A stretch of DNA of 64,000 nucleotides from NCBI GenBank assembly GCA_016790285.1, contig JAEUPJ010000029.1, forward strand, positions 17,995-81,994, given 5' to 3'. The notes beneath the pieces were generated by a model that saw only the letters and a list, made by a program, of their open reading frames with translations, did not search any database and was not told the DNA's origin. The stretch is from Roseateles sp. GTDB lineage: Bacteria; Pseudomonadota; Gammaproteobacteria; Burkholderiales; Burkholderiaceae_C. This document shows positions 238 through 40,935 of the stretch, piece after piece (position 1 is the stretch's first letter; the number at the start of each line of letters is the position of its first letter). The translations under genes and the position numbers were made by a program.

Positions 238-2412
238 TCAGGCGAGGTGGAGTTCGGGCACGAAGGTGTCCAGGCCCGCTGCGATGAGTTCCGGCGAGAT
301 GCCCAGGGCCCACGCCGCGGCGACGGCGGCCAGCAGCGTGGAGGCGTCGACCGCCTGCGCGCCGAAGCGGCGCAGCAGCGCGTCGATGTTGGCGCCGGGG
401 GTTTCGGCCGGGCCTTGCGCCAGCACGGCGGCACCGCCGCGCAGGAAGACGGCGCGGCCGCCGCGCTCGCGGTGGTGGCGGATGGCGTCGAGGTTGCCGT
501 CCTCGGCGTAGAAGAGCACTTCGCCGTCGCTGAGCTCGGCCATGTCCACGAGGCGCGGGTGCGCGGCGTGCAGGACGCTCGCGCCATCGCTGAGCACCAC
601 ATCGACCTGGGTGCGCAGCACCTTGTAGAGCTGGTCGACGTCCTGCACGTCGAAGTCCGCGAGGGCGTCGATGCCCTCCAGGTCGGTCACGACGCCCACC
701 GTCGCGCGGTCGTAGGCCAGGCCGTCGCGCAGGATGGAGGCGGCATCGTTCTCGACGACCACGGCATTGACGCCGCGGTTCATCAGCAGGCGGTGGGCGG
801 CGTCCCAGCGGGCGCTGTTCGCCTTCTCGACACGGCGCGTGCCCAGGAACAGGCCGTCGCGGCAGGCCAGGCCCACGTGGCGGCCGTTGAGGTGCAGCAG
901 CCAGGCCACGAGGCGCGAGACCTGCTGGCCACCGCGCGAGCCGGCCACGCCGACGATGGGGATGCGGCCGGTCTCGTCTTCGGCGAAGAGGTGGTCGATG
1001 ATGGCCTGGCCCACGGGCTGGGGCGCGCCCCCGGCGGGCTTGAGGTGCATCAGCAGGCCCGGGCCGGCATTGACCTCGACGATGGCGCCGCCGGTCTCGG
1101 ACAGCGGCTTGCCGATGTCTTCGGTGACGAGGTCCACGCCCGCGATGTCCAGGCCCACGGTGCGTGCGGCCAGGGACACGGCATGTGCCACTTCGGGGTG
1201 GACCTCTGGCGTGCAGTCGATGGCGACGTTGCCGTTGCGCTGGATGAGCACGGACTTGCCGGCCGCCGGCACGGTGTCGGGGGCGAAGCCCTGGCGCTGC
1301 AGGTCCAGCAGCACGACGGGGTCTTCGCCGAGGGTGATGCGGTTGAGGGGGAAGTCCTCGGTCAGGCCGCGGCGGGGGTCGGTGTTGATCTGCAGGTCGA
1401 TCAGCTCGGCCACGGTGTGTTGGCCGTCGCCGTGCACCCAGGCAGCCTCGCCGCGCGCGGCCGCCACGACCTGGCCGCCCACGACCAGCACGCGGTGCTC
1501 GTTGCCTCGGATGTAGCTCTCCACCAGCACCGAGGAGCCCTCGGCGTCGGCCAGCTTGAAGGCGGCCTCGCAGTCGGCTTCGTTGGTGATGTCGAGCGTG
1601 ACGCCGCGGCCGTGGTTGCCGTCGCTGGGCTTGATGACCACCGGCAGGCCGATGTCCTGGGCCGCTTCCCAGGCCTGCGCGGCCGTCTTGACCTCCTGGC
1701 CGTCGGGCACGGGCACGCCCACGGCCTTGAGCAGGGTCTTGGTGAGGTCCTTGTCGCCGGCGATGCCCTCGGCGATGGCGCTGGTCATGTCGGTCTCGGC
1801 CGTCCAGATGCGGCGCTGGCGCTGGCCGTGGCCGAGCTGCACGAGGTTGCCGTCGTTCAGCCGGATGTGCGGGATGCGCCGGTCGGTGGCCGCGGCCACG
1901 ATGGCCGCGGTGGAGGGGCCGAGGTAGCAGTCGTCGAGCTTGTCGCGCACCCGGGCCACGGCGGCGGGCACATCAAACGGCTCGTCGTTGATCATGGCCA
2001 TGATGAGGGCGTGGCCCTCGGCCAGGGCGGCGCGGGCGACCTGCTCGTCGCGGGCCCGGAAGACCATGCGGTAGACGCCGCGCTGGCTGGTCGAGCGCGT
2101 CTGGCCGAAACCCGTGGGCATGCCCGCGAGGTTGAGCAGCTCGATGACGATGTGCTCCAGCACGTGGCCGCACCAGGTGCCTTCGCGCAGCCGCTCGATG
2201 AAGCCGCCGCGCTCGCCGACGCCGCAGTGGTGTTCGATGAGGGCGGGCAGGGCGGTCGTCAGGCGGTCGTTGAAGCCGGGCAGCAGGTGGGAGGGGTAGT
2301 CCTCCAGCTCGCCGAGGTCGAGCCAGACTTCCAGCACCGGCCGGTAGGTCCACATGTTGGGCCCGCGCAGGTAGTTGATGCGCAGCAGGCGGATGTCGTT
2401 CTTCTTGCTCAT
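238..2412 (-). CDS. cphA': Cyanophycin synthetase-like protein CphA' with degenerate C-terminal P-loop
   Basis: 724 residues, shorter than the roughly 870 of canonical CphA. The N-terminal domain (1-200) carries YLRGPNMW. A central ATP-grasp domain follows (about 210-480), with VIKPSDGNHGRGV near 260 and an EVNAGPG segment. The C-terminal domain resembles Mur ligases. Canonical CphA has a GTNGKTT-type P-loop there; this protein reads GVAGSRGGQQ at residues 488-497, so the nucleotide-binding Lys is Gly495 and the following Thr residues are Gln. The Mur-like site is therefore unlikely to bind ATP, while ATP-grasp looks intact. Known betaproteobacterial cphA'-cphA pairs have this two-gene form. 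The exact role is uncertain: a half-reaction, priming or a structural partner of CphA. It is transcribed divergently from the ABC transporter at 2514. Confidence 0.88.
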   Translation of the reverse strand: MSKKNDIRLLRINYLRGPNMWTYRPVLEVWLDLGELEDYPSHLLPGFNDRLTTALPALIEHHCGVGERGGFIERLREGTWCGHVLEHIVIELLNLAGMPTGFGQTRSTSQRGVYRMVFRARDEQVARAALAEGHALIMAMINDEPFDVPAAVARVRDKLDDCYLGPSTAAIVAAATDRRIPHIRLNDGNLVQLGHGQRQRRIWTAETDMTSAIAEGIAGDKDLTKTLLKAVGVPVPDGQEVKTAAQAWEAAQDIGLPVVIKPSDGNHGRGVTLDITNEADCEAAFKLADAEGSSVLVESYIRGNEHRVLVVGGQVVAAARGEAAWVHGDGQHTVAELIDLQINTDPRRGLTEDFPLNRITLGEDPVVLLDLQRQGFAPDTVPAAGKSVLIQRNGNVAIDCTPEVHPEVAHAVSLAARTVGLDIAGVDLVTEDIGKPLSETGGAIVEVNAGPGLLMHLKPAGGAPQPVGQAIIDHLFAEDETGRIPIVGVAGSRGGQQVSRLVAWLLHLNGRHVGLACRDGLFLGTRRVEKANSARWDAAHRLLMNRGVNAVVVENDAASILRDGLAYDRATVGVVTDLEGIDALADFDVQDVDQLYKVLRTQVDVVLSDGASVLHAAHPRLVDMAELSDGEVLFYAEDGNLDAIRHHRERGGRAVFLRGGAAVLAQGPAETPGANIDALLRRFGAQAVDASTLLAAVAAAWALGISPELIAAGLDTFVPELHLA

Positions 2413-25587: not shown

Positions 25588-25724
25588 CACGATCTCCTCG
25601 GGCATGCGGCGCAGCCCGTTGCCGGCGACTCTAGGCAGGCTGGGTGAGGGCTCGGTGAGGCGAAAGTGAGGCCAAGGTTAAGGCGCTGCGCTCCGTGACA
25701 ACCCGCCCAGGACATTCCCGCCCC

Positions 25725-25766
25725 CGTCACGCGGACGCAAGTGCATGTCGCCCTGCCGCAAGTCGC
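25725..25766 (+). promoter_or_regulatory. Two abutting 21-base ArgR-type half-sites upstream of cyanophycinase
   Basis: Half-site 1 (25725-25745) reads CGTCAC-N8-AA-N5; half-site 2 (25746-25766) reads TGTCGC-N8-AA-N5, an exact match to the Pseudomonas aeruginosa ArgR consensus TGTCGC-N8-AA-N5. The two join without a gap in the direct-repeat register ArgR uses. They end 87 bases before the cyanophycinase ATG, on its coding strand. An ArgR-type protein is encoded at 28910-29905. Consensus quoted from memory of the ArgR literature. Confidence 0.65.
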
Positions 25767-25853
25767 CGTCTACCCGGCCGGCGGCGTGCTGACTACCGTG
25801 GCCACGGGGTCGAGGCTGCCGCTGTGGCGCCCCCCTGCCTTGCCTGGAATGCC

Positions 25854-27215
25854 ATGAAAAAAGCCATCACCTCCCTCGTTGGGACCCTGCTGCTCACGCT
25901 GGCCGCCGCACCGGCCTCGGCCGGCAAGCTGTTCCTGTCGGGCGGCGCCTATGACGACGCCAACGTCGACCTCTTCGTCAACGGCCTGCGCAAGGCCACG
26001 GGGCGCGACGCGGGCTTCACGCCCAACATCGCCAGCACCGCCAACTGCGGCACCAACTGGGCCACGACCGCCTGCCCGCGCATCGCCGTGGTGACCGCCG
26101 CGAAAGACAGTTATGCCACCGGCCTGGATGCCTTCCAGAACGACATCCCGGCCACGTCCACCAGCGCCCTCAAGCGCGGCTACTACAACCTCTTCCAGAC
26201 CCACGGCTTCAGCCCGAAGTTCATCACCGCGCACGTCGACAACTACGGCGTCCACGCCAGCGCCAGCACGCCCCAGGGGCAGGCCAACATCGCCATCCTC
26301 AACCAGGCCGACGCGGTGTGGTTCGTCGGCGGCGACCAGGCCAAGATCATCCGCACCTTCCTGACCGACAGCGGCGCCGACTCGGGGCTTGCGGCCGCGC
26401 TGCGTGCCCGCTGGAGCAACGGCAGCGGCAACATCGTCATCGCTGGCGACTCGGCCGGCAACCACGCGCTGAACGTGAAGATGCATGCCGCCGGCGTGAG
26501 CTACGGCTACCTCTACTACGGCGCCGACCTGCCCAGCACGCCCGTCACCGGCTGGCAGACGCTGGGCGACACGCGCGACGGCACCACAGCGCTGCGCTAC
26601 CTGGAGAACGGCGCCACGATGAAGGCCCTGGGCTTCCTGCCCGCGGGCATCCTCAGCGACACCCACTTCGACAGCCGCTCCGGCCGCCTGGGGCGCCTGG
26701 CCGCCGCGCTGCGCAGCCTGAGCGTGCAGCAGGGCTTCGGCGTGGACGAGAACACGGGCGTGGTGGTCGACACCTCGGCGCAGACGGCCACGGTCTTCGG
26801 GGTCAACAAGCTGCTCATCGTCGACACCGCGGCGGCCAGCGTGCAGGCCGGCACCTACTACAAGGTCAACGGCCTGCGCGTGAGCCTGCTCACGCCGGGC
26901 GACCGCTACAACTACGCGAGCAAGGTGGTGACGAGCAGCAAGAGCGCCATCGGCACCGCGTATTACTACAGCAGCTACTACGACTCGCCCGACATCTTCG
27001 CGGCGCTGGAGACGTCCAAGTCGCTGACGCGGGTGGTCGACCAGACGCCCACCAGCAACATCGGCACCGCGCCCGTGCCGGTCTACAGCAGCGGCCCGGC
27101 CTACCCGGGCGGCGCGCCGCTCATCAAGCTGCGCTTCACGCGCGACGCGACCACCAAGGGCTACTACGGCAGCGGCAAGTACACGGTCGACAAGGCCAAG
27201 GTCGACATCTACTGA
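25854..27215 (+). CDS. cphE: Secreted cyanophycinase (peptidase S51), copy 1
   Basis: 453 residues with a Sec signal peptide (MKKAITSLVGTLLLTLAAAPASA). The family is the serine exopeptidase S51: KLFLSGGAYDD opens the mature protein, WFVGGDQAKI matches the substrate-pocket GG-D/Q segment, and the nucleophile lies in GDSAG with S200. It cleaves cyanophycin to beta-Asp-Arg dipeptides; the signal peptide makes it extracytoplasmic, as in CphE. A Tyr/Ser-rich C-terminal region of about 130 residues exceeds the intracellular CphB length (about 270). It is transcribed towards, and ends 22 bases from, the succinyltransferase operon. Confidence 0.9.
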   Translation: MKKAITSLVGTLLLTLAAAPASAGKLFLSGGAYDDANVDLFVNGLRKATGRDAGFTPNIASTANCGTNWATTACPRIAVVTAAKDSYATGLDAFQNDIPATSTSALKRGYYNLFQTHGFSPKFITAHVDNYGVHASASTPQGQANIAILNQADAVWFVGGDQAKIIRTFLTDSGADSGLAAALRARWSNGSGNIVIAGDSAGNHALNVKMHAAGVSYGYLYYGADLPSTPVTGWQTLGDTRDGTTALRYLENGATMKALGFLPAGILSDTHFDSRSGRLGRLAAALRSLSVQQGFGVDENTGVVVDTSAQTATVFGVNKLLIVDTAAASVQAGTYYKVNGLRVSLLTPGDRYNYASKVVTSSKSAIGTAYYYSSYYDSPDIFAALETSKSLTRVVDQTPTSNIGTAPVPVYSSGPAYPGGAPLIKLRFTRDATTKGYYGSGKYTVDKAKVDIY

Positions 27216-27237
27216 CGCGACACCGCCGCCACGCCGC

Positions 27238-27894
27238 TCAGGTGGCGGCGGGCCAGGACAGCACCGGCCCGCCGTCGTCGATGCGGGCATGCTCGGGCGG
27301 GTGAAAGCCCGCCGCGCGCAGGGCCTGCAGGGCGGGGCGGGCCGCCTCGGGCACGTCCAGCACGCGCGCCGCGGCCTCGGCACCGAGGAAGGACAGGTAC
27401 ACGGTCTGGCGCGGCAGCAGGGCCGCGAGATGGCTGCGCCATTCAGGCCCCAGCCGCTGCTCGGCCTCGACGGGGTCGCCCGCGTAGAAGCGTGCACCCA
27501 GCGCCTGCCAGAACGGCGAGCGGCCGCCACCGTCCACCCAACCGGGCAACTCGGCCACCAGCGCGTCACCGAAGTCGCCCGGCCGTTCGCGCAGCAGTGC
27601 CTGCGCCGCGGCGATCAGCTCGCCATGCGCCGCGGTCTCCTCGGCCGCCGTGAGCCCGGGCGCGCAGCGCAGCGCGGTCAGCTCGGCGCGGCCGGTGTGG
27701 TCGTTGCCGAGCAACAGCGTCGTTTGCACGCGGAACAGCCCCAGCTCCGCCGCCGCGTGCACGACGCGCCCGAGGCGGAAGTGGTAGCGCGGGAGGGTGA
27801 GGCCCAGGCGCGGCACGAGGTGCAGCGAGGCGGTGTCGCCCGGCAGGGCCAGGCGCAGGCCTGCGCCCTCGCCGGTGATCTGAACGCGGCTCAT
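27238..27894 (-). CDS. Arginine N-succinyltransferase-like protein, short second subunit
   Basis: 218 residues against about 340 for AstA/AruF/AruG. Shared AstA landmarks are RSPFWQALGARFYAGD (about 125) and LLPRQTVYLSFLG (about 165), followed by a short C-terminus (IDDGGPVLSW). The first half of the usual acyltransferase fold is much reduced and lacks the RPV opening. The ATG overlaps the astA stop (ATGA), so expression is coupled to the full-length subunit. Pseudomonas uses a two-subunit AruF-AruG enzyme; this may be the shrunken partner, possibly non-catalytic. It is the last gene of the operon. Confidence 0.75.
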   Translation of the reverse strand: MSRVQITGEGAGLRLALPGDTASLHLVPRLGLTLPRYHFRLGRVVHAAAELGLFRVQTTLLLGNDHTGRAELTALRCAPGLTAAEETAAHGELIAAAQALLRERPGDFGDALVAELPGWVDGGGRSPFWQALGARFYAGDPVEAEQRLGPEWRSHLAALLPRQTVYLSFLGAEAAARVLDVPEAARPALQALRAAGFHPPEHARIDDGGPVLSWPAAT

Positions 27895-28913
27895 GCGGCC
27901 ACCTCCGTCTGCAGTGGCGTCACGACCAGCCGGTCGCCGGCCCGGGCGCCCACGCGTGCAGCCGTGGCCGCGTCCACGTCGCGCCCGACCTCGGCCAGCA
28001 CGGCGCGAAAGCGCGCCCGCTCGGTGCAAGCCACCAGCGCCCACTCGCGCGGGCCGGGGTCGGGCTCGTCCTGCACCACCACATCGCGCGCGAGGCGCAC
28101 GCTGCGCAGCGAGGCCAGCGGCGCCTCGACCGTGGGCCCGCCGTCGAAGATGTCGACATAGGTGTCGGCGTCGAAGCCTTCGTCCTGCAGTACCGAGAAA
28201 GGCAGCTCGCCCACGGGGTGCAGCTGCCCGAGCGCCCACTGCGCCGCCTCGGGCAGCAGGGCCACGTAGATGGGCGAGGGCGGCATCAGGTCGGCGATGA
28301 AGGCCTTGCTGCGCCCGCCGACGATGACCTCGGCCTGCGGGTAGTCCATGCCGAAGAAGCGCCGGCCCACCGCGTCCCAGAAGGGGCTCTGGCCGGCGGC
28401 GTCGGTGATGCCGGGGCTTTCGGCCGCAATGCGCTCGGAGAAACGGTTTGCATGCGCGCGGATGAACAGCAGCCGCGCGCGCGACAGCAGCTGGGCGGCG
28501 GGCCCCGGCTCGTAGGCCGGGTCCAGGTAGAACGAGGTCAGCAGCGTTGCGCCGGTCAGGTCGTGGCACAGGTGCAGCGTGTGCATGCGCTGCGACACGC
28601 CGAGGGCCGCGCTCGCATGCACGACGAACTCGTTGCGGTAGCTGTAGAAGCGGTCGAAGAAGCCGGCGCTGGCGGCAATGCCCGAGCAGCCGACAAGCTG
28701 GCCTGCCTGCAGGTCTTCCAGCACGAAGAGGTAGGTCTCCTCGCCGCTGGCGTCGTCGGGGCTGGCGAAGGCCTGGCGCGACGCGGCGATGCGGGCGGCC
28801 AGCTTGGCCTCGTCGTTGGGCAGCGAGCTGATGCCGTCGGCGCTGGCCGCCGCCATGCGCACGAGGCCGGCCAGGTCGGCCTCGGCCACGGGGCGCAGCA
28901 GCAGGTGGTTCAT
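27891..28913 (-). CDS. astA: Arginine N-succinyltransferase
   Basis: 340 residues, the family length. It transfers succinyl from succinyl-CoA to the alpha-amino group of arginine, the first step of the AST pathway. Family landmarks are the opening LLLRPVAEADLAGL, ISSLPND, FYSYRNEFVVHAS, HLCHDLTGATLLTSF, SPFWDAVGRRFFGMDY and a C-terminal VIVT-type segment. It overlaps the upstream argR-like gene and the downstream short paralogue by four bases each. astB, astC, astD and astE are not in the window. The position after a cyanophycin dipeptide hydrolase suggests it consumes the arginine released from cyanophycin. Confidence 0.92.
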   Translation of the reverse strand: MNHLLLRPVAEADLAGLVRMAAASADGISSLPNDEAKLAARIAASRQAFASPDDASGEETYLFVLEDLQAGQLVGCSGIAASAGFFDRFYSYRNEFVVHASAALGVSQRMHTLHLCHDLTGATLLTSFYLDPAYEPGPAAQLLSRARLLFIRAHANRFSERIAAESPGITDAAGQSPFWDAVGRRFFGMDYPQAEVIVGGRSKAFIADLMPPSPIYVALLPEAAQWALGQLHPVGELPFSVLQDEGFDADTYVDIFDGGPTVEAPLASLRSVRLARDVVVQDEPDPGPREWALVACTERARFRAVLAEVGRDVDAATAARVGARAGDRLVVTPLQTEVAA

Positions 28914-29905
28914 GGGGTCTCTCCCGGGGTGTTGGGGGCGCGCCAGGCCAGGGCCCGGCGGCTGCGCTCGTCGCGCGGGGTGTGGCCGAAATGGCTCTTG
29001 TAGGCGTTCGAGAAATGCGGGCCCGACGAGAAGCCGCAAGACAGCCCGATCTGCAGGATGGACTGCGAGCTCTGCTGCAGCAGCCGCTGCGCACGGGCCA
29101 GGCGCAGCTCCAGGTAGTGGCGCGAGGGCAGGGTGTCCAGGTGCTGCTTGAAGAGGCGCTCGAGCTGCCGGCGCGACACGCCCACGAGCTGCGCCACCTC
29201 CTCGGTGGGCAGCGGCTCGGCCAGGTTGGCCTCCATCAGCGCCAGGGCCTCGGCGAGCTTGGGGCTGCCGGCGCCACGGCGCTCGCTGTAGCCGGCGCGC
29301 TGTCGCTCGTCACGCGGGCGCAGGCCCTTGAGGCCGAGCAGCTGGGACAGCTCCTGGCCGAGCCGCTCGCCGTGCTGGGCGGCCAGCCAGGCGCCGCACA
29401 GGTCCAGGCTGGCCAGGCCGCTGGCGCAGGACAGCCGCCGGCCGTCGGGGCTGATCTCCCACAGGCCGTTGGCCCAGGCCACACCCGGGTGGGCGTCGGC
29501 CAGGCCGTCCAGCAGGGGCCAGTCGGCGCAGGCACGCTGGCCGTCCAGCAGCCCGCAGGCGGCGAGCTGCGCGGCGCCCGCGTCCACGCCGGCAAGCACG
29601 CGCCCCTCCTCGGCCCAGCGCTTCAGGCGTGCGGCCAGTGCCGCGTCGGCGGGGCCGGGGTCGGCGGCGATCACGAACACGGCGTGCCAGTCGGCCTCGC
29701 CCGGCAGCGGGCCCGTCTGCAGCAAGGCGCCGTTGCCGGCGGCCACCGCGCCGCCCGTGAGGGACAGGCATTCGCCCCGCCAGGCCACCTCGTCCTGCAG
29801 CTCGTTGGCGGCGGCCAGGCAGTCCAGCACACCGGCCAGGGCGAGCATCGAGAAGCCCGGCTGCGGCAGCAGGGCGACTCGGCGCAGGGGCGGCGGTGGG
29901 GTCAT
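28910..29905 (-). CDS. argR: GlxA/AraC-family regulator, ArgR type
   Basis: 331 residues: a DJ-1/PfpI-like N-terminal domain (1-190), as in GlxA regulators, and a C-terminal AraC double helix-turn-helix (about 225-320) with VAQLVGVSRRQLERLFK and IGLSCGFSSGPHFSNAYKSHFG. This architecture, and its place between a transporter and the succinyltransferase genes, match Pseudomonas ArgR, the arginine-responsive activator of the aru and aot operons. E. coli-type ArgR is unrelated. Candidate binding sites lie at 25725-25766 and 33762-33803. It overlaps astA by four bases and follows the permease gene by 16. Confidence 0.85.
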   Translation of the reverse strand: MTPPPPLRRVALLPQPGFSMLALAGVLDCLAAANELQDEVAWRGECLSLTGGAVAAGNGALLQTGPLPGEADWHAVFVIAADPGPADAALAARLKRWAEEGRVLAGVDAGAAQLAACGLLDGQRACADWPLLDGLADAHPGVAWANGLWEISPDGRRLSCASGLASLDLCGAWLAAQHGERLGQELSQLLGLKGLRPRDERQRAGYSERRGAGSPKLAEALALMEANLAEPLPTEEVAQLVGVSRRQLERLFKQHLDTLPSRHYLELRLARAQRLLQQSSQSILQIGLSCGFSSGPHFSNAYKSHFGHTPRDERSRRALAWRAPNTPGETP

Positions 29906-29921
29906 GACCCGGATCGTCGCA

Positions 29922-31307
29922 TCACCAGTGCATCAGCGCCGCACCGGCAAGCAGGGCCAGGGCCATCGCGAGGTAGATCGCCTGCAGCGGCAGCATCCAG
30001 CGCAGCCAGGTGCCGAAGGGCACGCCCGACAGCGCGAGCACACCGACCGTGATGCCCGAAGTCGGGATGATGGGCGTGGTGAGTTCGCCGAACTGGAAGG
30101 CCAGCACCGCCGTCTGGCGCGTGACGCCGACGAGGTCGGCCAACGGCGCCATGATGGGCATGGTGAGTGCGGCCTGGCCCGTGCCGGAGTGGATGAAGAA
30201 GTTGATGACCGACTGGATCACGAACATCTTCTGTGCCGCCAGCACCGGCGTGCTGGAGGCCACCAGCGGTGCCAGCGCGTCCAGCAGCGTGTCGATGATC
30301 TGACCCTCGCGCATCAGGATGACGGTGCCCTTGGCCAGCGCGATGACGAGGGCCGTGCCCACCAGGTCGCGAGCGCCGTGCAGGAAGGCCGCCATGAACT
30401 CGTCGGCCGACAGCCGCGCCACCGCGCCCACGGCCAGCGCCATGACGAGGAAGAGGGCGGCGATCTCCTCGATGTACCAGCCGAACTTGACGACGCCGCC
30501 GATCATGACGGCAAGCGTCGCGGCGAACAGCCACAGCACCACGCGGTGCCGCCGGGTCATGCCGGCGAACTGCTCGAAGCTGGCCAGGTCCAGCGTCTTG
30601 CGGCGCTCCTGGTCCATCGCGAAGGTGGGGCTGAGCTCGGGCGCGCGGCGGATGCGCGCGGCCCACCACATCAGGAAGGCGACGGTCAGGCCCGTCGCGA
30701 GGGCCCAGCACAGCGCCCGGTAGCCGATGCCTGAGAACAGCGGCACCCCCGCGATGCCCTGTGCCACGCCGACATTGAAGGGGTTGAGGAAGGCAGTCGC
30801 GAAGCCCACCTGCGAGCCGACGAAGGGGATGGCCACGCCCGTGAGCGTGTCCAGCCGCAGCGCCAGCGCCAGCGGGATGAAGATCAGCACGAAGGGGATG
30901 GCCTCCTCGGCCATGCCGAAGGTGGCACCGCCGAGCGAGAACAACGTGACGAACACCGGGATCACCAGCATGCGCACGAGGGCCGAGCGGCTGTGCGCGC
31001 GGGCCACCGACTTGATCATCGCGTCGATGGCCTCCGTGCGTTGCAGCACCGCGAAGGCGCCGCCCACCGTGAGCACGAAGCCGATGATGAGCGCCGCCTC
31101 GACGAAGCCCTTGATGGGTGCCGTCAGCAGCGCAACCAGCCCCTGTGGCTGGGCCTCCACGAGGTGGAAGCTGCCCGGGATGATGACCTTCTTGCCGTTG
31201 ACGAGCTCGGTCTCGAAGCGCCCGCCGGGCACGATCCAGGTCGCGGCTGCGATGAGCGCCAGCAGCGCGAACAGCAGCACATAGGTGTTGGGCAGCCGCA
31301 GCTTCAT
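29922..31307 (-). CDS. YfcC-family inner-membrane permease
   Basis: 461 residues with about 12 hydrophobic segments. Features include FLNPFNVGVAQGIAGVPL and the C-terminal GELTTPIIPTSG, typical of the YfcC group within the ion-transporter superfamily. Some members are arginine-ornithine antiporters and others carry C4-dicarboxylates. The ATG overlaps the cphZ stop (ATGA). Between a dipeptide hydrolase and arginine catabolic genes, uptake of beta-Asp-Arg, arginine or aspartate is a reasonable inference, and the substrate is unproven. Confidence 0.8.
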   Translation of the reverse strand: MKLRLPNTYVLLFALLALIAAATWIVPGGRFETELVNGKKVIIPGSFHLVEAQPQGLVALLTAPIKGFVEAALIIGFVLTVGGAFAVLQRTEAIDAMIKSVARAHSRSALVRMLVIPVFVTLFSLGGATFGMAEEAIPFVLIFIPLALALRLDTLTGVAIPFVGSQVGFATAFLNPFNVGVAQGIAGVPLFSGIGYRALCWALATGLTVAFLMWWAARIRRAPELSPTFAMDQERRKTLDLASFEQFAGMTRRHRVVLWLFAATLAVMIGGVVKFGWYIEEIAALFLVMALAVGAVARLSADEFMAAFLHGARDLVGTALVIALAKGTVILMREGQIIDTLLDALAPLVASSTPVLAAQKMFVIQSVINFFIHSGTGQAALTMPIMAPLADLVGVTRQTAVLAFQFGELTTPIIPTSGITVGVLALSGVPFGTWLRWMLPLQAIYLAMALALLAGAALMHW

Positions 31308-32422
31308 GGCGATAGCAGCTTTCCTGAGCGGTAGGCCACGGCGCCGGCGATCTTGGCCAGCCGCATGCCGCGGGTGGCGAAGCGCCGGGCGCTGCGTGCG
31401 AAGCACCGGCCCGTAGCCAGCGCATGCAGCGGCGTGCGCACATCGGTGAGAGGGCAGACGATCTCGGCGACGAGCTCACCCGCCTCCACCCAGTCGCCCG
31501 GCGATTTCGCGAACACGACGATGCCGCTGACCGGCGCCGTGACGGGCTCCACGCCTTCCAGCGGTGTCGGCTGGCAGCCAGCAGGCACGGGGGGCGGGCT
31601 GCCGGCCACATGGCCGAGGTGCTGCAGCGCCGCGATCAGGGCGTCGGCGTCGCGCTCGGCCAGGGGCTGGCTCACCTCGGTCTCGCCGCGCAGCTCCACG
31701 GTGGCGGCCAGGCAGCCGTGCGGGTCGACCGGGAAGCGCCCCTCGAAATGCGAGGCCAGCTCCCACCACAGGCGTGACAGCGTCTCGTCGAAAGGGTCGT
31801 CGCCCGAGACCTCGCTGTACAGCAGCGCCTGTGCGCCCAGATAGCCCGCCAGCGGACGCAGCGCCTGCACCTGCGGCGTGCCGGTGTAGACGTGCATGAC
31901 GGCCTGGTTGTCGCAGTGCAGGTCCAGCACGAGGTCGGCATCCGCGGCCAGCGTCTGCAGCAGCTGCTTGAGCGCCTCGGCTTCGCTCGTGGGCTGCCAG
32001 GCCGCCAGCAAGCTGCGGCAGGCCGCGCGGATGGTGCGCGTGTTGGCGGCCATGTCGGGCCCCAGCCGGCCCTCGAGCGCCGGGATGAGCGCCGGCGTGA
32101 GGTGCCGGAACTGGCGGTTGAAGTTGACGCCGGTGCCGAGGTCGAAACGGCCGAAGGCGCTGCCCTGCACGTCCTGCGACAAGCCGATCGGGTTGGCCAT
32201 GGGCACGAGGATGATCTCGCCGGCGATGGCCCCGGCGGCTTCGAGTGCCGCGAGGCGCTCGATGAGGCACTGCGCCACGAGCATGGGCGGCACCTCGTCG
32301 GCGTGCAGCGCGGCCTGGAGGTAGGCCTTGCGGCCGGAGGTGCCGGCACCGAAGTGCAGGCTGCGCACATGGCGCTGCGTGCCGGCGCTGGCGGCCGGCA
32401 GGTCATGGATCACGGGGCGCAT
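31304..32422 (-). CDS. cphZ: Cyanophycin dipeptide hydrolase (M14, AstE/AspA family)
   Basis: 372 residues of the succinylglutamate desuccinylase/aspartoacylase family of zinc metallopeptidases. Zinc ligands are H40 and E43 (ALHADE) and H168 (LDLHCDN), with E242 (VELRGE) as candidate general base. A biotin-lipoyl-like beta domain follows (about 280-345). Published work on CphZ and its Pseudomonas homologue AotO showed that this kind of protein splits beta-Asp-Arg into Asp and Arg, and aotO sits in an operon with argR, as here. The gene begins one base after the cyanophycinase stop. AstE activity on succinylglutamate is the main alternative; context favours CphZ. Confidence 0.82.
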   Translation of the reverse strand: MRPVIHDLPAASAGTQRHVRSLHFGAGTSGRKAYLQAALHADEVPPMLVAQCLIERLAALEAAGAIAGEIILVPMANPIGLSQDVQGSAFGRFDLGTGVNFNRQFRHLTPALIPALEGRLGPDMAANTRTIRAACRSLLAAWQPTSEAEALKQLLQTLAADADLVLDLHCDNQAVMHVYTGTPQVQALRPLAGYLGAQALLYSEVSGDDPFDETLSRLWWELASHFEGRFPVDPHGCLAATVELRGETEVSQPLAERDADALIAALQHLGHVAGSPPPVPAGCQPTPLEGVEPVTAPVSGIVVFAKSPGDWVEAGELVAEIVCPLTDVRTPLHALATGRCFARSARRFATRGMRLAKIAGAVAYRSGKLLSP

Positions 32423-32423
32423 G

Positions 32424-33650
32424 TCAGTTCGCCTGCAAGGGCGTGAAGAGCGGGGTGGCCATGCGCACGGGAGTCACGTCCAGGCGCACCTTGAGCACGG
32501 TGTAATCCTCGCCGCCGAGGGCGCCGCTGAACCAGCCCACGAGGCCTGGGCCCTTGCTCAGGCGGAACTCGAAGCCGAGGTCGGGGGACAGGTCGCCGGG
32601 CCGCGGCTTGGCGCGGTAGGCCAGGCCGCGCACTTCAGGGAAGGGGCTGTCCAGCAGCTGTGCCATGGCGGTGACGATGGCGCTGTCGGCCAGGATGTCC
32701 AGGAAGTACTGGTCGTGCCGCAGGTAGGGCTTGTAGTCGCTGGCGGCCGGGTCGATCCTGGCTTCGCGCAGCTTGTGCGCCGCGGGGGTGGTGACGCCGG
32801 TCTTGAGGTCGTGGCGGTCGCCGCGGTCCAGGTAGCTGATGACGGCCCCGCGCAGGTTGAACGCAGGCACCTTCGCGTCGCTCGTGGCGTCCGACAGGTC
32901 AACCAGCAGCGCGCCGCGCGCGCCGACGATCTCGACCTGGGTGCCCTTCACGACGGCCGCCGTGTTCTCCTCGACGCCCAGGCCCAGCTTGTAGCCGAAG
33001 GCCCGCATGGCCGGCAGCATGCGGCCGATGCGCCCGCGCTTGAGGAAGTGCTGGTCCACGAAGAGCTCCGGCCCGACGAAGCCCAGGCCGCGGTCGTACT
33101 CCTGTCGCTCGCGCCACTGGCCCTTGAGGATCTGCATGTTGTCCTGCGCGTCGCGGAACATCATGCGGCTCATGATGGCCGCGCCCGCGCTGGTGCCGGC
33201 CACCACGCCGCCGCCGTCGAACACCTGCCAGATGGCCTTGAGCATGGCGGTGGGCTGGCCGCCGGGCTGCAGGGTGTCGACGATGTACTCCTGCGCGCCG
33301 CCCGAGAAGAACACGGCCTTGGCGCCGGCCACCTTGGCGATGAGCGCGGGGTCGTTGAGCCGGGCCTGCAGGTCCACGTCCTTCAGGCGCGGGGCCACGG
33401 GAATGGCCTCGGCACTGGCGCCGTGGCGGTTGAGCGTGGCCACGATGAGGCCGGCGCTGCGCTCGGGGTTGGCGGCTGCGGTGGCGAAGACGGCGATGCG
33501 CGCGCCGGGGCCGCCGGCTTCTTCGACGATGCGCTCCCAGACGGCGTCGTTGTCGCTCTTGAGCGCGCCGCCGATGACGATGGCGGTGCCGGCCTGGGCA
33601 GCGCCGGCCCAGCACAGGCCGAGCAGGAGGAGGGGTTTCAGGAATCTCAT
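32424..33650 (-). CDS. cphE: Secreted cyanophycinase (peptidase S51), copy 2
   Basis: 408 residues, signal peptide MRFLKPLLLLGLCWAGAAQA cut near 20. S51 landmarks are IVIGGALKSDND, FFSGGAQEYI and the nucleophile motif GTSAG with S154, then QEYDRGLGFVG. It degrades cyanophycin to beta-Asp-Arg outside the cytoplasm. It is only distantly similar to the other cyanophycinase in this window. It is the first gene of the six-gene operon ending at 27238. A long in-frame opening upstream of 33650 is antisense to the TonB receptor and not part of the gene. Confidence 0.9.
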   Translation of the reverse strand: MRFLKPLLLLGLCWAGAAQAGTAIVIGGALKSDNDAVWERIVEEAGGPGARIAVFATAAANPERSAGLIVATLNRHGASAEAIPVAPRLKDVDLQARLNDPALIAKVAGAKAVFFSGGAQEYIVDTLQPGGQPTAMLKAIWQVFDGGGVVAGTSAGAAIMSRMMFRDAQDNMQILKGQWRERQEYDRGLGFVGPELFVDQHFLKRGRIGRMLPAMRAFGYKLGLGVEENTAAVVKGTQVEIVGARGALLVDLSDATSDAKVPAFNLRGAVISYLDRGDRHDLKTGVTTPAAHKLREARIDPAASDYKPYLRHDQYFLDILADSAIVTAMAQLLDSPFPEVRGLAYRAKPRPGDLSPDLGFEFRLSKGPGLVGWFSGALGGEDYTVLKVRLDVTPVRMATPLFTPLQAN

Positions 33651-33734
33651 GCAGCCATCTTGGCAGTGCGCGGCGGCAGCGGCCAGCGGGTTAGGCCTCA
33701 AGGCGGTGCGCCATGCACCGGCAACGCAATTGCA

Positions 33735-33755
33735 TGTCGCATCGGCGCAAGGACC
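33735..33755 (+). promoter_or_regulatory. Single ArgR-type half-site facing the TonB receptor gene
   Basis: TGTCGC-N8-AA-N5, an exact consensus match on the plus strand, 135 bases before the TonB receptor ATG. No second half-site abuts it, so it is weaker evidence than the tandem pair. Confidence 0.4.
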
Positions 33756-33761
33756 CCCCGG

Positions 33762-33803
33762 CCGGCTTGCCGGGAAGCGACGCCGACTTGCCCAGAAGCG
33801 ACC
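33762..33803 (-). promoter_or_regulatory. Two abutting 21-base ArgR-type half-sites upstream of cyanophycinase operon
   Basis: Read on the minus strand, 33803-33783 is GGTCGC-TTCTGGGC-AA-N5 and 33782-33762 is CGTCGC-TTCCCGGC-AA-N5. Both match TGTCGC-N8-AA-N5 except for the first base, and they abut exactly. They point towards the cyanophycinase start, 111 bases downstream, and lie 87 bases before the divergent TonB receptor start, so one site could serve both. Confidence 0.65.
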
Positions 33804-33890
33804 GGCACGCCGAAACCCCATAGGCAAGTCAGACGCCGCCTCCCTAACCTGAATGGCATCCGCTCCCAACCATTCAACACCGAGGCCTTC

Positions 33891-36656
33891 ATGACCCGCT
33901 CCTTCACCCGGCACCCGCTGGCCCACGCCGCCCTCCTGTGCTCCATCGCCCTGACTGCGCAGGCGCAGGACCAGAAGCTCGAACGCGTCGAGATCACTGG
34001 CTCCAGCATCAAGCGCGTGGACGGCGAGACCGCGCTCCCTGTCGACGTGATCAAGCGGCAGGACATCGACAAGCTCGGTGTGACCACCGCCGCCGAGCTG
34101 CTGCAGAAGATCACCTCCAACGTCGGCGGCCTGACCGACGGCGCCTCCATCAGCGACCAGAGCGGCGGCCAGCGCGGCTTCAACGGCGCCAACCTGCGCG
34201 GCCTGGGTGTTTCCAGCACGCTGGTGTTGCTCAACGGCCGGCGCCTGGCCAACTTCGCGAGCCCCGGAGACGACGCCGGTGTCGACTTGAACAGCATTCC
34301 GTCCGGCGCCATCCAGCGCGTGGAGGTGCTCAAGGACGGCGCCTCCGCCATCTACGGCACCGACGCCATGGGTGGCGTGATCAACTTCATCACCCGCAAG
34401 GACTATCAAGGCGCCGACATCAGCGCCTACGGCCTCAAGACCGACGAAGGTGGCGCGGGCAAGAAGACCGTGACCCTCGGCGCCGGCTTCGGCGACCTGC
34501 GCAAGGACCGCTTCAACGTGTTCGCCACGCTGGACCTGCAAAAGCTCGACCCGCTGGACGCCTCGCAGCGCCAGTTCATCCGCGAGTACAGCCTGCCCAC
34601 CAGCCTGCCGCCGCAGGCGTCGAGCAACTCCTTCCCGGCCAACGTCGACCTGACCAGCGCCCAGCTGACTGCGCTGAACAACTTCGTGCGCGCCAACCCG
34701 GGCACCGCACTCAAGGGCAGCAACGCCGACGGCACCTGGAACCCGGGCGGCCCGAACTCCGGTTCGCGCCGCGTGAACTTCGGCAAGGCCAGCTGCACAG
34801 GCGCGCCCAACCCGAACTTCGTCGATGGCACGAGCCTGGGCGGCCGTGAGGGCTGCTCCTACGATTACGTGGCCGGCTCGCAGATCTACCCCAAGGCCGA
34901 CAAGCAGAGCCTGCTGGGCCGCTTCACGGCGCAGCTCGACGACGACAACCAGGTTTTCGCCGAAGTCATGCTGGCCCAGGCCCAGACCGACTACGCCGCC
35001 TCGCCCGCCACGGCACGCTTTCGCACCAGCTCGGGCATCGCGCTGCCCAAGTCGCTGCAGGACGTGACCGGCGTCACCGGCGCGGTGGACTTCCGCTTCC
35101 GCCTGGAAGATGCCGGCCAGCGCACCAGCCGTGTGGAGAGCAACGCCAGCCGGCTGGTGATCGGCGCCACGGGCCTGCTGGCCGGCTGGGACTACGACGC
35201 CGCCATCAGCCAGGCCACCAACAAGGCCACCGACACCGACCTGTCCGGCTGGGTGTCGCTGAGCAAGCTGGAAGCCGGCCTGAAAGCAGGCGCCTACAAC
35301 CCGTTCGTGAAGCCCGCCGACCGCACGGCCGGCCAGGCGTTCATGAATTCCATTCGCCTGGACGGTGCCGCTCGCATCAGCAAGGGCACCTCGACCAGCA
35401 TCGACGGCAAGCTCACGCGCGCACTGGGCCAGTTGGGCGGCGGCGACTTGATGCTCGCGCTCGGTGCCGAGCTGCGCAAGGAAAAGACCGAGTTCCGCGC
35501 CACCGACGTCCTCAAGAGCAATGACGTCAACGGCGACCGTTCCAGCTCGGGCGAGCTGCTCGCTGACACGAGCCATTCGCGCAACGTGGCCGGCGTGTTC
35601 GCTGAACTCAGCGCGCCGATCACGCGCCAGCTCGAAGCCCAGTTCGCGCTGCGCCACGACCGCTACAACGGCGTGTACGACGCCGCCACGCAGAAGACCT
35701 CGCCGGACCTGAGTACCACCAACCCCAAGCTGGGCGTGAGCTGGCGGCCCGCCAAGCAGCTGCTGGCGCGTGCGTCCTACGGCACCGGCTTCCGTGCCCC
35801 GACGGTGTCGGAGATGTTCCTGCCGCTGCGCTCGGGCATCACCGCCAGCTTCGTGCGCGACCCCGTCAGCGGCGAAGTCGGCCAGCTCAACATCGACCGT
35901 TACTCCAACCCCGAACTCAAGCCCGAGAAGTCCAAGCAGGCCAGCCTGGGCGTGGTGTTCGAGCCGACGCGAAACCTCATCGGCAGCCTCGACTACTGGA
36001 CCATCCGCAAGTCCGACATCATTTCGCAGATCGGCGAGGAAACCATCTTCACGACGCCTGCGCTCTACAACGACCCCAAGGTGGTGGCGCGCGACGTCGA
36101 CGGGTTCGTGGACTTCATCACCGTCAAGAAGGAGAACCGCGGCAAGCTGAACACGTCTGGCTTCGATGTGTCGTTGAACTGGCGCGGCGAGAACACGGGC
36201 CTGGGCACCTTCGGCGCCGGCATCAACGGCACGTTGGTCACCGAGTACAAGTTCTCGACCGACCCGCGCTCGCCGCTCGTGGACGGACTGGGCAAGTTCA
36301 AGGACGACAAGGCCGTTCAACGCTGGCGCCACAAGCTCAACGTGGACTGGGACTACGGCCCGGTGAGCCTGACGGTGACCAACACCTACCTCTCCAGCTA
36401 CCGTGACCAGAACGTGGACGGTCTGGCGGCACCCGCCTACAACAACCGCGACGTCAAGGCCTACTCGCTGTGGGACCTGACGGCCAGCTACCGCATCACG
36501 TCGGACCTGCGCCTGCGCGGCGGCATCCTGAACGTGGCCGACACCGCACCGCCGTTCACCAACCAGTCGCGCTATTTCCAGGTCACCTGGGACCCGACCT
36601 ACGGCGACCCGCGCGGCCGCAGCTTCTTCATGAGCCTGAGCTACCGGCTGCGCTGA
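33891..36656 (+). CDS. TonB-dependent outer-membrane receptor
   Basis: 921 residues from the ATG at 33891; an in-frame opening continues far upstream but is antisense to the cyanophycinase gene. Signal peptide ends near TAQAQ. A candidate TonB box (RVEITGSSIKR, about 30) is followed by the plug domain (about 45-160, with LRGLGVSSTLVLLNGRRL and VLKDGASAIYGTDAMGGVINF) and a 22-strand barrel ending in an aromatic-rich C-terminus. It imports ligands using TonB energy. No Fur box is visible upstream, arguing against iron. Divergence from the cyanophycinase operon across shared ArgR-type sites suggests uptake of cyanophycin fragments. Confidence 0.88.
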   Translation: MTRSFTRHPLAHAALLCSIALTAQAQDQKLERVEITGSSIKRVDGETALPVDVIKRQDIDKLGVTTAAELLQKITSNVGGLTDGASISDQSGGQRGFNGANLRGLGVSSTLVLLNGRRLANFASPGDDAGVDLNSIPSGAIQRVEVLKDGASAIYGTDAMGGVINFITRKDYQGADISAYGLKTDEGGAGKKTVTLGAGFGDLRKDRFNVFATLDLQKLDPLDASQRQFIREYSLPTSLPPQASSNSFPANVDLTSAQLTALNNFVRANPGTALKGSNADGTWNPGGPNSGSRRVNFGKASCTGAPNPNFVDGTSLGGREGCSYDYVAGSQIYPKADKQSLLGRFTAQLDDDNQVFAEVMLAQAQTDYAASPATARFRTSSGIALPKSLQDVTGVTGAVDFRFRLEDAGQRTSRVESNASRLVIGATGLLAGWDYDAAISQATNKATDTDLSGWVSLSKLEAGLKAGAYNPFVKPADRTAGQAFMNSIRLDGAARISKGTSTSIDGKLTRALGQLGGGDLMLALGAELRKEKTEFRATDVLKSNDVNGDRSSSGELLADTSHSRNVAGVFAELSAPITRQLEAQFALRHDRYNGVYDAATQKTSPDLSTTNPKLGVSWRPAKQLLARASYGTGFRAPTVSEMFLPLRSGITASFVRDPVSGEVGQLNIDRYSNPELKPEKSKQASLGVVFEPTRNLIGSLDYWTIRKSDIISQIGEETIFTTPALYNDPKVVARDVDGFVDFITVKKENRGKLNTSGFDVSLNWRGENTGLGTFGAGINGTLVTEYKFSTDPRSPLVDGLGKFKDDKAVQRWRHKLNVDWDYGPVSLTVTNTYLSSYRDQNVDGLAAPAYNNRDVKAYSLWDLTASYRITSDLRLRGGILNVADTAPPFTNQSRYFQVTWDPTYGDPRGRSFFMSLSYRLR

Positions 36657-40074: not shown

Positions 40075-40935
40075 TCACAGCGCGAGGTTCATATCGATAT
40101 CGATGCCTGAGGCCTTCAGTTCACGTGCAAGCTCAAGGCGCCATGCTCCGCGGTCATCAACCGCAACGAACGCAACGCCAGAATAGTCAGAGGGGATCTC
40201 GACACCGCCCATGTGCAGTGCCGTGACCCGATTGCGCGAGAGCTTTCCCAGGAAGTACCCAAGCTCAAGAATCACGTTCTGCCTAGCGCGAGGACGTTGC
40301 TCTTCAAACGTGGCCTTCACCGTTCCACCGCGGTCGTCGGGTGTCAGCAGCACTACCGCGTAACTGACGTCAGCGAAATCAACAAACTTCTCGATGATTG
40401 TTCGACCTGAGCTTGGCTGCTCGCGTAGAACGATTGGTTGGAGCTGGAGCTTCTCGAGATAGCGCGCAACTTCGTGCAAGAGTCCATCGTTGTGGCCGTG
40501 TACTAGGAAAACTCGTCGACTTGGAGTGTGGGGAGCCTCAGGCGGTAGCTGCGGCACCTGTGGTTGTAGGCTGTCGCCGTTCAGCGTTAGCTCAGTCTCT
40601 AGAAGCTCTACTAGGCCTCTTAGGCGGCTGATTTTCGATTGAAGCGACTTTGCGTTGTGGTTCTCCCACCAGTCTGGTCCCGCGTTCATCGGGAAGCTGC
40701 CGTACTTGCCGATATCAACAACGGCGCTCACGTTGGGTGAGAAGTTCCCGAAAGCCTTGGTAAGGAAGTTCTTGGTGAGCAGTTCCCAAGCGCTCAGCGC
40801 GTCCGACTTGATTGGACGATTGGCGAGTAGCTCCTCCGCGCGCTCAATCTGTTGATTTAGCAGGCGAATCCCGTCCTCCGGTGCGATCTCAGGAGCGCCG
40901 ACAGTTGGCTTAGCAGGAGTCTTTCGAGTGGCCAT
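40075..40935 (-). CDS. Orphan TIR-domain protein (PF10137, CAP12/Pycsar-effector type)
   Basis: 286 residues. The N-terminal part (20-120) is helical with a coiled-coil-like stretch. The C-terminal TIR-like domain (140-286) has the family pattern: FLVHGHNDGLLHEVARYLEKL, PIVLREQPSSGRTIIEKF, VVLLTPDDRGG, RARQNVILELGYFLGKLSRNRV and IPSDYSGV. E224 in ILELGYF sits where the catalytic glutamate of TIR NADases lies; E182 in TIIEKF is also conserved. Related domains are NAD-cleaving effectors in CBASS and Pycsar. No cyclase, ThsA or other defence partner is adjacent. Base composition is lower in GC than the surroundings, suggesting transfer. Confidence 0.85.
   Translation of the reverse strand: MATRKTPAKPTVGAPEIAPEDGIRLLNQQIERAEELLANRPIKSDALSAWELLTKNFLTKAFGNFSPNVSAVVDIGKYGSFPMNAGPDWWENHNAKSLQSKISRLRGLVELLETELTLNGDSLQPQVPQLPPEAPHTPSRRVFLVHGHNDGLLHEVARYLEKLQLQPIVLREQPSSGRTIIEKFVDFADVSYAVVLLTPDDRGGTVKATFEEQRPRARQNVILELGYFLGKLSRNRVTALHMGGVEIPSDYSGVAFVAVDDRGAWRLELARELKASGIDIDMNLAL

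Follow-up and report, generated by a model that had tools for sequence, protein, structure and literature searches.

A stretch of 64,000 nucleotides from a Roseateles genome (hereafter the window; positions 17995-81994 of contig 80 in a 5.88 Mb draft of 107 contigs, 95% complete) carries a compact set of genes that probably constitutes an ArgR-controlled locus for scavenging cyanophycin, a polymer rich in arginine that other microbes use for storage. The locus would feed arginase, and it is accompanied by an orphan, probably repurposed pair of succinyltransferase-like genes, astA and astA2. In the proposed scheme, polymer fragments would be taken up by a TonB-dependent receptor and cut to beta-Asp-Arg outside the inner membrane by cyanophycinases whose family membership and leaders suggest that they are exported. 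The dipeptide would be imported by the permease YfcC, or by the products of Aot ABC genes in sister genera, and split into aspartate and arginine by CphZ, as expected from its family, with the arginine presumably passing to arginase, whose gene is present in the operon-bearing genomes. Control would be exerted by an ArgR-type regulator, presumably arginine-sensing, that may bind tandem ARG boxes placed before the operon, the receptor gene and cphE2. The astA/astA2 pair would be a retained, altered relative of the aruFG pair and not the entrance to the known arginine succinyltransferase (AST) pathway, most likely repurposed, either to bind arginine or ornithine as a partner in regulation or to catalyse a non-canonical reaction. 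Such an arrangement unites uptake across the outer membrane, digestion of the polymer, cleavage of the dipeptide and arginine control in one testable regulon, shows an inner-membrane importer being swapped while the order of the genes stays largely fixed, and includes a conserved succinyltransferase-like pair that would be annotated as AST pathway though the rest of that pathway is missing.

The operon lies on the minus strand. It starts with cphE1 (32424..33650), encoding a predicted exported cyanophycinase of 408 amino acids with a leader-like N-terminus and a Peptidase_S51 domain, followed by cphZ (31304..32422), for a predicted cyanophycin dipeptide (beta-Asp-Arg) hydrolase with an AstE_AspA_cat domain and no leader, and yfcC (29922..31307), for a DcuC-family permease (DcuC/YfcC) that is a candidate inner-membrane importer of beta-Asp-Arg or arginine. 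Next come the gene of the ArgR-type (GlxA/AraC family) regulator, with an HTH_18 domain (28910..29905), astA (27891..28913), whose product is an AruF- or alpha-like arginine/ornithine succinyltransferase homologue of the AstA family without the R-x4-G loop, and astA2 (27238..27894), for a short, degenerate, beta-like AstA paralogue that covers only positions 77-261 of PF04958. Four-base ATGA overlaps link cphZ to yfcC, the regulator gene to astA, and astA to astA2, the gaps being of 1 base between cphE1 and cphZ and 16 bases between yfcC and the regulator gene. The receptor gene (33891..36656, plus strand; Plug and TonB_dep_Rec_b-barrel domains) diverges from the operon, and cphE2 (25854..27215, plus strand), for a second predicted exported cyanophycinase-like protein of 453 amino acids with a leader-like N-terminus and likewise a Peptidase_S51 domain, converges with it; its start was taken as the ATG at 25854, the mechanical reading frame opening at 25695. 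The coordinates and the Pfam and NCBIfam domain searches bear out this gene set, with its strands, overlaps and gaps, as it had been described in the initial annotation, and the window thus clusters a cyanophycinase, an isoaspartyl dipeptide hydrolase and a transporter gene as cyanophycin utilisation loci do.

Against the cyanophycinase model TIGR02069 (cut-off 126.6 bits), CphE1 scored 109.2 bits by hmmscan and 127.3 bits in a whole-genome scan, and CphE2 99.0 and 99.1 bits, respectively. CphE1 matches the PDB entries 7uqv and 3en0, its stretches AGTSAG, DQHF and VEENT aligning with the solved enzymes, and the CphE2 stretches AGDSAG, THF and VDENT align with solved cyanophycinases as well; we take the aligned motif letters to include those of the catalytic triad. 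Leader-like N-termini, read by eye on both cyanophycinases and on the TonB receptor, support the earlier suggestion that the polymer is digested outside the cytoplasm, and the uptake of oligomers through the receptor seems likelier than the passage of the dipeptide. The CphZ/AotO cyanophycin dipeptide hydrolase was reportedly described by Sharon in 2023, and the window protein resembles it without noted differences: it is 43% identical to Pseudomonas aeruginosa AotO, and its best PDB match is 8ein (225 bits), followed by 8eip (222 bits). The printed alignments of these two entries differ at a single letter, Glu being replaced by Ala in 8eip, and the window CphZ has Glu. The CphZ identity given in the initial annotation is thereby supported at the level of sequence, and the enzyme would split beta-Asp-Arg into Asp and Arg. 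YfcC scored 320 bits with Pfam DcuC and 363.6 bits with NF008611 (YfcC), under the cut-off of 500.

A first set of 48 loci was retrieved by CphZ similarity, largely from Roseateles, Pelomonas, Mitsuaria and Paucibacter, with more distant members in Undibacterium, Massilia and Inhella, plus metagenome bins. In 21 of them (L011-L021, L023, L025-L027, L034, L035, L037, L038, L055 and L058) cphE1, cphZ, the regulator gene, astA and astA2 occur together in the same order, so that the gene order is kept in more relatives than chance would give; one of these loci, L012, belongs to the cultured relative R. puraquae. The contig ends directly after the regulator gene in L043 and inside cphZ in L040; the latter contig is labelled as a Methylotenera metagenome-assembled genome and its receptor-cphE1-cphZ stretch is 90-94% identical, possibly a binning error. 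In Undibacterium and Massilia loci cphZ-yfcC is flanked on the opposite side by a cyanophycinase gene wherever enough sequence was retrieved, and the receptor is also found in the Undibacterium loci and in L052; no regulator of ArgR type and no astA appeared in the retrieved stretches of these two genera. In L024 the receptor gene and cphZ are separated by an RpiR-type gene, and the other Undibacterium loci have a gap of comparable length at this place. In L053, L054, L056 and L057 cphZ occurs without the operon, and in Pelomonas sp. Root405 (L022, 9027-11161) a second cphZ diverges from a cyanophycinase-like gene, apart from any such operon.

A second set of 18 further loci was obtained by surveying 200 genomes from the same family. 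AstA was found in 20 of the 200, as 23 two-gene sets with the genes always side by side; five of these sets were already known (the window, L018, L019, L021 and L055), and cphZ or cphE1 lay near 22 of them, the other (L111) being at a contig end with a regulator gene and an AotP-type gene. The first set contributed 22 astA/astA2 pairs and the second 18, so that 40 pairs were examined, the window included. Among 39 retrieved astA loci the importer is represented by yfcC in 23, by at least one Aot-type ABC gene in 14 and by neither in two (L095 and L103). The order in L098, L101, L104, L105 and L106 is cphE1-AotJ-AotQ-AotM-cphZ-AotP-regulator-astA-second subunit, and that of P. aeruginosa (L061) is aotJQM-aotO-aotP-argR-(aruC)-aruF-aruG. 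The sister-genus order is therefore that of the P. aeruginosa cluster with a cyanophycinase gene in front, which makes the window operon, where yfcC is found and no AotJQMP genes surround cphZ, a reduced relative with another importer. Searches of plasmids gave no close copy of the operon, the best cphZ identity being 50%; for astA2 the best 15 of 81 plasmid records reached at most 37% identity and were astA-annotated or unannotated.

The assignment of the regulator to the ArgR type is borne out by its 42.6% identity to P. aeruginosa ArgR over 333 aligned positions. The best NCBIfam match of both proteins was GbdR (219 bits for the window regulator and 304 for ArgR, cut-off 480), no ArgR model of AraC type being among the matches shown. 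According to PMC10963909, the ArgR consensus is TGTCGCN6GNAA, with tandem half-sites 5 bp apart. Two putative ARG boxes occur in the window, both on the plus strand: one between the receptor gene and cphE1 (33735..33750), preceded by GCAA and a 5-bp spacer, and one of the same form about 90 bases before the cphE2 ATG (25746..25761). Their count is ordinary, their places are not.

Across the regulator-bearing loci, the window included, the exact consensus was present in 34 of 40 operon promoters, a set from which L111 was excluded, its stretch having no promoter, and in which L098 and L106, lacking a divergent receptor, were represented by the 600 bases before cphE1. These promoters hold 47 exact boxes, against 0.17 expected from shuffles, and all 47 have AA at the expected end of a preceding half-site separated by the 5-bp spacer, while the six spacer bases inside the box differ between loci. 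The reversed consensus was found in none of the 40 promoters, and 300 scrambled patterns matched on average 0.14 of the 40, with a maximum of three. A box was seen in one of 20 promoters of loci without a regulator gene in the retrieved stretch (L029) and in none of the four additional receptor-cphE modules that precede the operon in L026, L034, L035 and L038; L040, cut before the regulator gene, has one box. The box preceding cphE2 matches the consensus exactly in L011 and L013 and with one mismatch in L012; none was seen in L016, L018 and L019, whose cphE2 lies behind astA2 on the same strand. The single shared regulon put forward earlier appears, from these motifs before the operon and receptor gene and before cphE2, strongly supported. 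A genome-wide ARG-box regulon was rejected, pattern matches being at chance level in three genomes. Eight flanks around nine genome-wide matches (seven from the own genome and one from G002) revealed no clear further target by eye, and a match with the same letters in G000, G002 and G003 lies inside an rpoA-like gene (two flanks, by eye).

The initial annotation had arginine entering the AST pathway, and this part did not hold. An AstA homologue is present in the window, and AstB (PF04996) is absent from its own genome. The AstB search covered 45 genomes, namely the own genome and 44 reached via loci (L044, L022, L054 and L056 were left out, L022 being from the genome of L013), and found the protein in six, all Massilia (L046-L049, L051 and L052); it was over the cut-off in none of the 23 operon-bearing genomes and in none of the 200 family genomes, one of which gave 20 bits. 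AstA, on the other hand, was found in 25 of 27 genomes, corresponding to the 23 operon-bearing ones, with two matches each, and two Massilia, the two without it being Undibacterium; in G032 (L043) the matches are at the start of another contig. AstD was over its cut-off of 579 bits in none of the 23 operon-bearing genomes (best 293 bits; second-set genomes were not searched), with the Massilia positive controls, also positive for AstB, at 777 and 769 bits. AstE was over its cut-off of 306 bits in none of the 27 genomes, again without the second set, and the 23 operon-bearing ones gave at most 29 bits. With AstB, AstD and AstE under their cut-offs and the R-x4-G loop in neither subunit, AST entry was rejected as the fate of arginine. 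Three Massilia loci have, directly behind astB, a gene some 1570 codons long (L080, 4327-9033; L081, 11604-16301; L082, 10301-15013), which in L080 and L081 stands before an astE-like gene; it is perhaps an NAD-glutamate dehydrogenase gene.

Each of the 23 operon-bearing genomes has arginase-family sequence (PF00491), which in G005 consists only of pieces where contigs end. The own-genome arginase lies on another contig (TIGR01229, 289.8 bits, cut-off 227.6). In L021 an arginase gene (TIGR01229, 286 bits) begins 33 bases after the astA2 stop, with a very similar copy elsewhere in that genome (L084, by eye), and in L015 astA2 is followed by a divergent Lrp-type-like gene (by eye), an ornithine cyclodeaminase gene (550.5 bits, cut-off 350) and the start of an arginase gene. 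The presence of arginase genes in all operon-bearing genomes, and beside the operon in relatives, thus makes arginase the best guess for the route that arginine would take.

Among the references used, AstA is nearest to AruF (46.6% identity) and AstA2 to E. coli AstA and AruG (36%). AstA scored 379.8 bits with the alpha-subunit model TIGR03245, under the cut-off of 458.8 (AruF itself gives 546.7), and 362 bits with the subfamily model TIGR03243, over the cut-off of 284. Seven canonical sequences share 56 invariant columns, of which 39 are conserved throughout the 22 first-set AstA proteins and 16 throughout the 22 AstA2 proteins. The R-x4-G stretch, presumably the acyl-CoA loop of GNAT motif A, was present in all 12 single-gene or beta-type AstA proteins examined, one of them with an insertion, and at the aligned place in none of the 40 AstA and none of the 40 AstA2 proteins, so that neither member of the pair supplies the loop that at least one subunit of a heteromer would have. 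Two AstA2 proteins have Q-x4-G nearby, out of register, and in two AstA proteins the next segment forms one. AstA keeps R145, E243, Y250 and D255 (AruF numbering) in 40/40, H230 in 39/40 and D252 in 37/40, and AstA2 keeps only D255 of these six throughout. The predicted AstA2 model (pLDDT 86.9) has 1yle (AruF) as best PDB match, with a TM score of 0.71 and no other match at E 0.001; for AstA, AF2 gave a model of low quality (pLDDT 65.8), which was set aside. The second subunit of G152 is longer, the whole-genome scan aligning profile positions 31-335. In comparisons with L011, L012 and L013, dN/dS was 0.056, 0.108 and 0.163 for astA and 0.245, 0.240 and 0.243 for astA2, with values from 0.095 to 0.400 in the rest of the operon; both genes are under purifying selection in these three comparisons. 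Regulator, astA and second-subunit genes are adjacent in 39 of 40 retrieved regulator loci, the exception (L043) being due to a contig end, and the cphZ and transporter genes around them vary (L096, L103 and L109). The pair seems cut off from the pathway after which it is named.

What the pair does instead can be read in two ways, both of them sub-hypotheses of the favoured repurposing. It may consist of pseudo-enzymes, binding arginine or ornithine and modulating the adjacent ArgR-type regulator, a possibility worth entertaining although it falls short of probable: the constant adjacency just described and the loss of the loop with other AstA residues kept would fit it, but adjacency need not mean partnership, since in P. 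aeruginosa, too, argR stands close to aruFG, separated from it by aruC. Somewhat less probable is a working ornithine (or arginine) acyltransferase, with the missing AST steps performed by unrelated or generic enzymes; arginase would give ornithine and AstA would turn it into N2-succinylornithine, which would then be processed by a transaminase of ArgD type, a general aldehyde dehydrogenase and a further hydrolase of AstE/AspA type. The arginase-family genes in 23/23 genomes, the low dN/dS and the mostly canonical astA residues agree with such an enzyme, as does the acceptance of ornithine besides arginine as a substrate for succinylation by AruFG (excerpt of PMC9007349, citing Tricot 1994), and a Serratia plasmid cluster (L126) also has no astB in the stretch seen. 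That cluster, however, retains astD, astE and an AstA with R-x4-G, whereas here AstD and AstE are absent and the loop is in neither subunit. The still more specific idea that, in cyanophycin-scavenging Burkholderiales, the pair forms an acyl-CoA-independent arginine/ornithine-binding complex that, with the adjacent regulator, reports the yield of polymer digestion is speculative and rather unlikely. Decay into remnants without function is the least probable account: the loss of AstB, AstD, AstE and the loop and the shortening of astA2 speak for it, but all 40 pairs keep open frames over the matched stretch and a conserved order, and with dN/dS well below 1 in the three comparisons this explanation was disfavoured.

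The remaining alternative concerns the polymer, which could be the cell's own cyanophycin and not a foreign one. The window contains a cyanophycin synthetase-type gene (238..2412, minus strand; NF010623 1021.7 bits, cut-off 877; TIGR02068 701 bits, below the cut-off of 850), and a neighbouring copy lies just outside it (contig 80, 15667-18201; 959 bits). With two tandem synthetase-type genes about 25-30 kb from the operon on the same contig, the organism probably also makes cyanophycin. Nevertheless, the leader-like N-termini of both cyanophycinases, the promoter region shared with a TonB receptor gene and the location of the synthetase genes outside the operon render digestion of the cell's own polymer improbable, though less so than decay of the pair.

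Several points weigh against the reading of the locus as a cyanophycin-scavenging regulon with a repurposed pair. The own genome is a draft, 95% complete in 107 contigs, and the absence of the AST pathway rests on AstB, AstD and AstE; AstC was outside the searches, which for AstD and AstE did not extend to the genomes of the second set. The Massilia controls for AstE, at 265-266 bits, were also under the cut-off, though far above the 23 operon-bearing genomes. The R-x4-G loop was found in none of four alpha-type AstA proteins (AruF, two Massilia and one Halomonas gene in two pieces); because canonical alpha subunits also lack it, its absence from astA alone proves nothing and the argument rests on the partner. 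The residues that AstA keeps would fit a working enzyme as well. As for the boxes, TGTCGCN8AA, a less strict form of the pattern, has two matches in the window against a shuffle mean of 1.4, with at least two matches in 40 of 100 shuffles, and the genome-wide pattern gave 21 matches against 27 in the control, so that the case for them rests on position and conservation. The exact box is missing from six of the 40 promoters (L096, L098, L104, L105, L106 and L109), and relatedness makes the loci non-independent, for which none of the controls corrects. The operon is patchy, two survey genomes of the same genus having no AstA, and that cyanophycin is the substrate of the TonB receptor we infer.

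The P. aeruginosa aotJQMOP-argR-aruCFGDB cluster shares with the window the order AotO(CphZ)-ArgR-AruF-AruG and ARG boxes of the published form, and with the sister genera the AotJQM and AotP genes as well; unlike it, the window adds cyanophycinase and TonB receptor genes, has YfcC in place of Aot, lacks aruC, aruD and aruB, and has a degenerate second subunit. In the excerpted text of PMC10206079, cyanophycinase genes cluster with those of isoaspartyl dipeptidases and transporters in a cyanophycin utilisation locus (Ben Hania 2017), and cyanophycin dipeptide hydrolase is presented as a then-new family, Sharon 2023 being cited. The clustering of a cyanophycinase, a dipeptide hydrolase and a transporter for scavenging is common to that locus, as far as the excerpt describes it, and to the window, whereas the latter has CphZ instead of IadA/IaaA, ArgR-type control, a TonB receptor, the astA pair and cyanophycin synthetase genes elsewhere on the contig. 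A TonB receptor near a cyanophycinase was noted in Citromicrobium, the excerpt of PMC3400609 reporting only proximity in a neighbourhood that the window shares. In a literature search that left most subscription papers outside its scope, no description was found of a cyanophycinase, TonB receptor, ArgR-type regulator and astA combination; the claim that the arrangement is undescribed thus stands for the combination and not for its parts, each of which has been published before, namely utilisation loci, the CphZ family and a receptor next to a cyanophycinase.

In ornithine/citrulline clusters, ctlX adjoins ocd or aruG (excerpt of PMC9007349). One such cluster, on a conjugative Serratia plasmid (AP028537.1; L126, 1-6521), reads ocd-ctlX-astC-astA-astD-astE and shares with the window an AstA without AstB in the stretch seen, keeping astD and astE in contrast to it. 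An astA beside an astC-type gene is also present on many listed Klebsiella plasmids.

A second module occurs on contig 19 of the own genome (L089, 6545-12227), where a TonB receptor gene diverges from two cyanophycinase genes scoring 141 and 134 bits, above the cut-off. Its SDR- and YceH-like neighbours resemble those beside the L092 and L055 operons, which suggests a split of the locus in this lineage. Elsewhere in the window, the reading frame at 40075-40935 lies within a region of low third-position GC bias and has a C-terminal half that resembles, by eye, a TIR-type nucleotide-binding domain, and it is possibly a defence gene.

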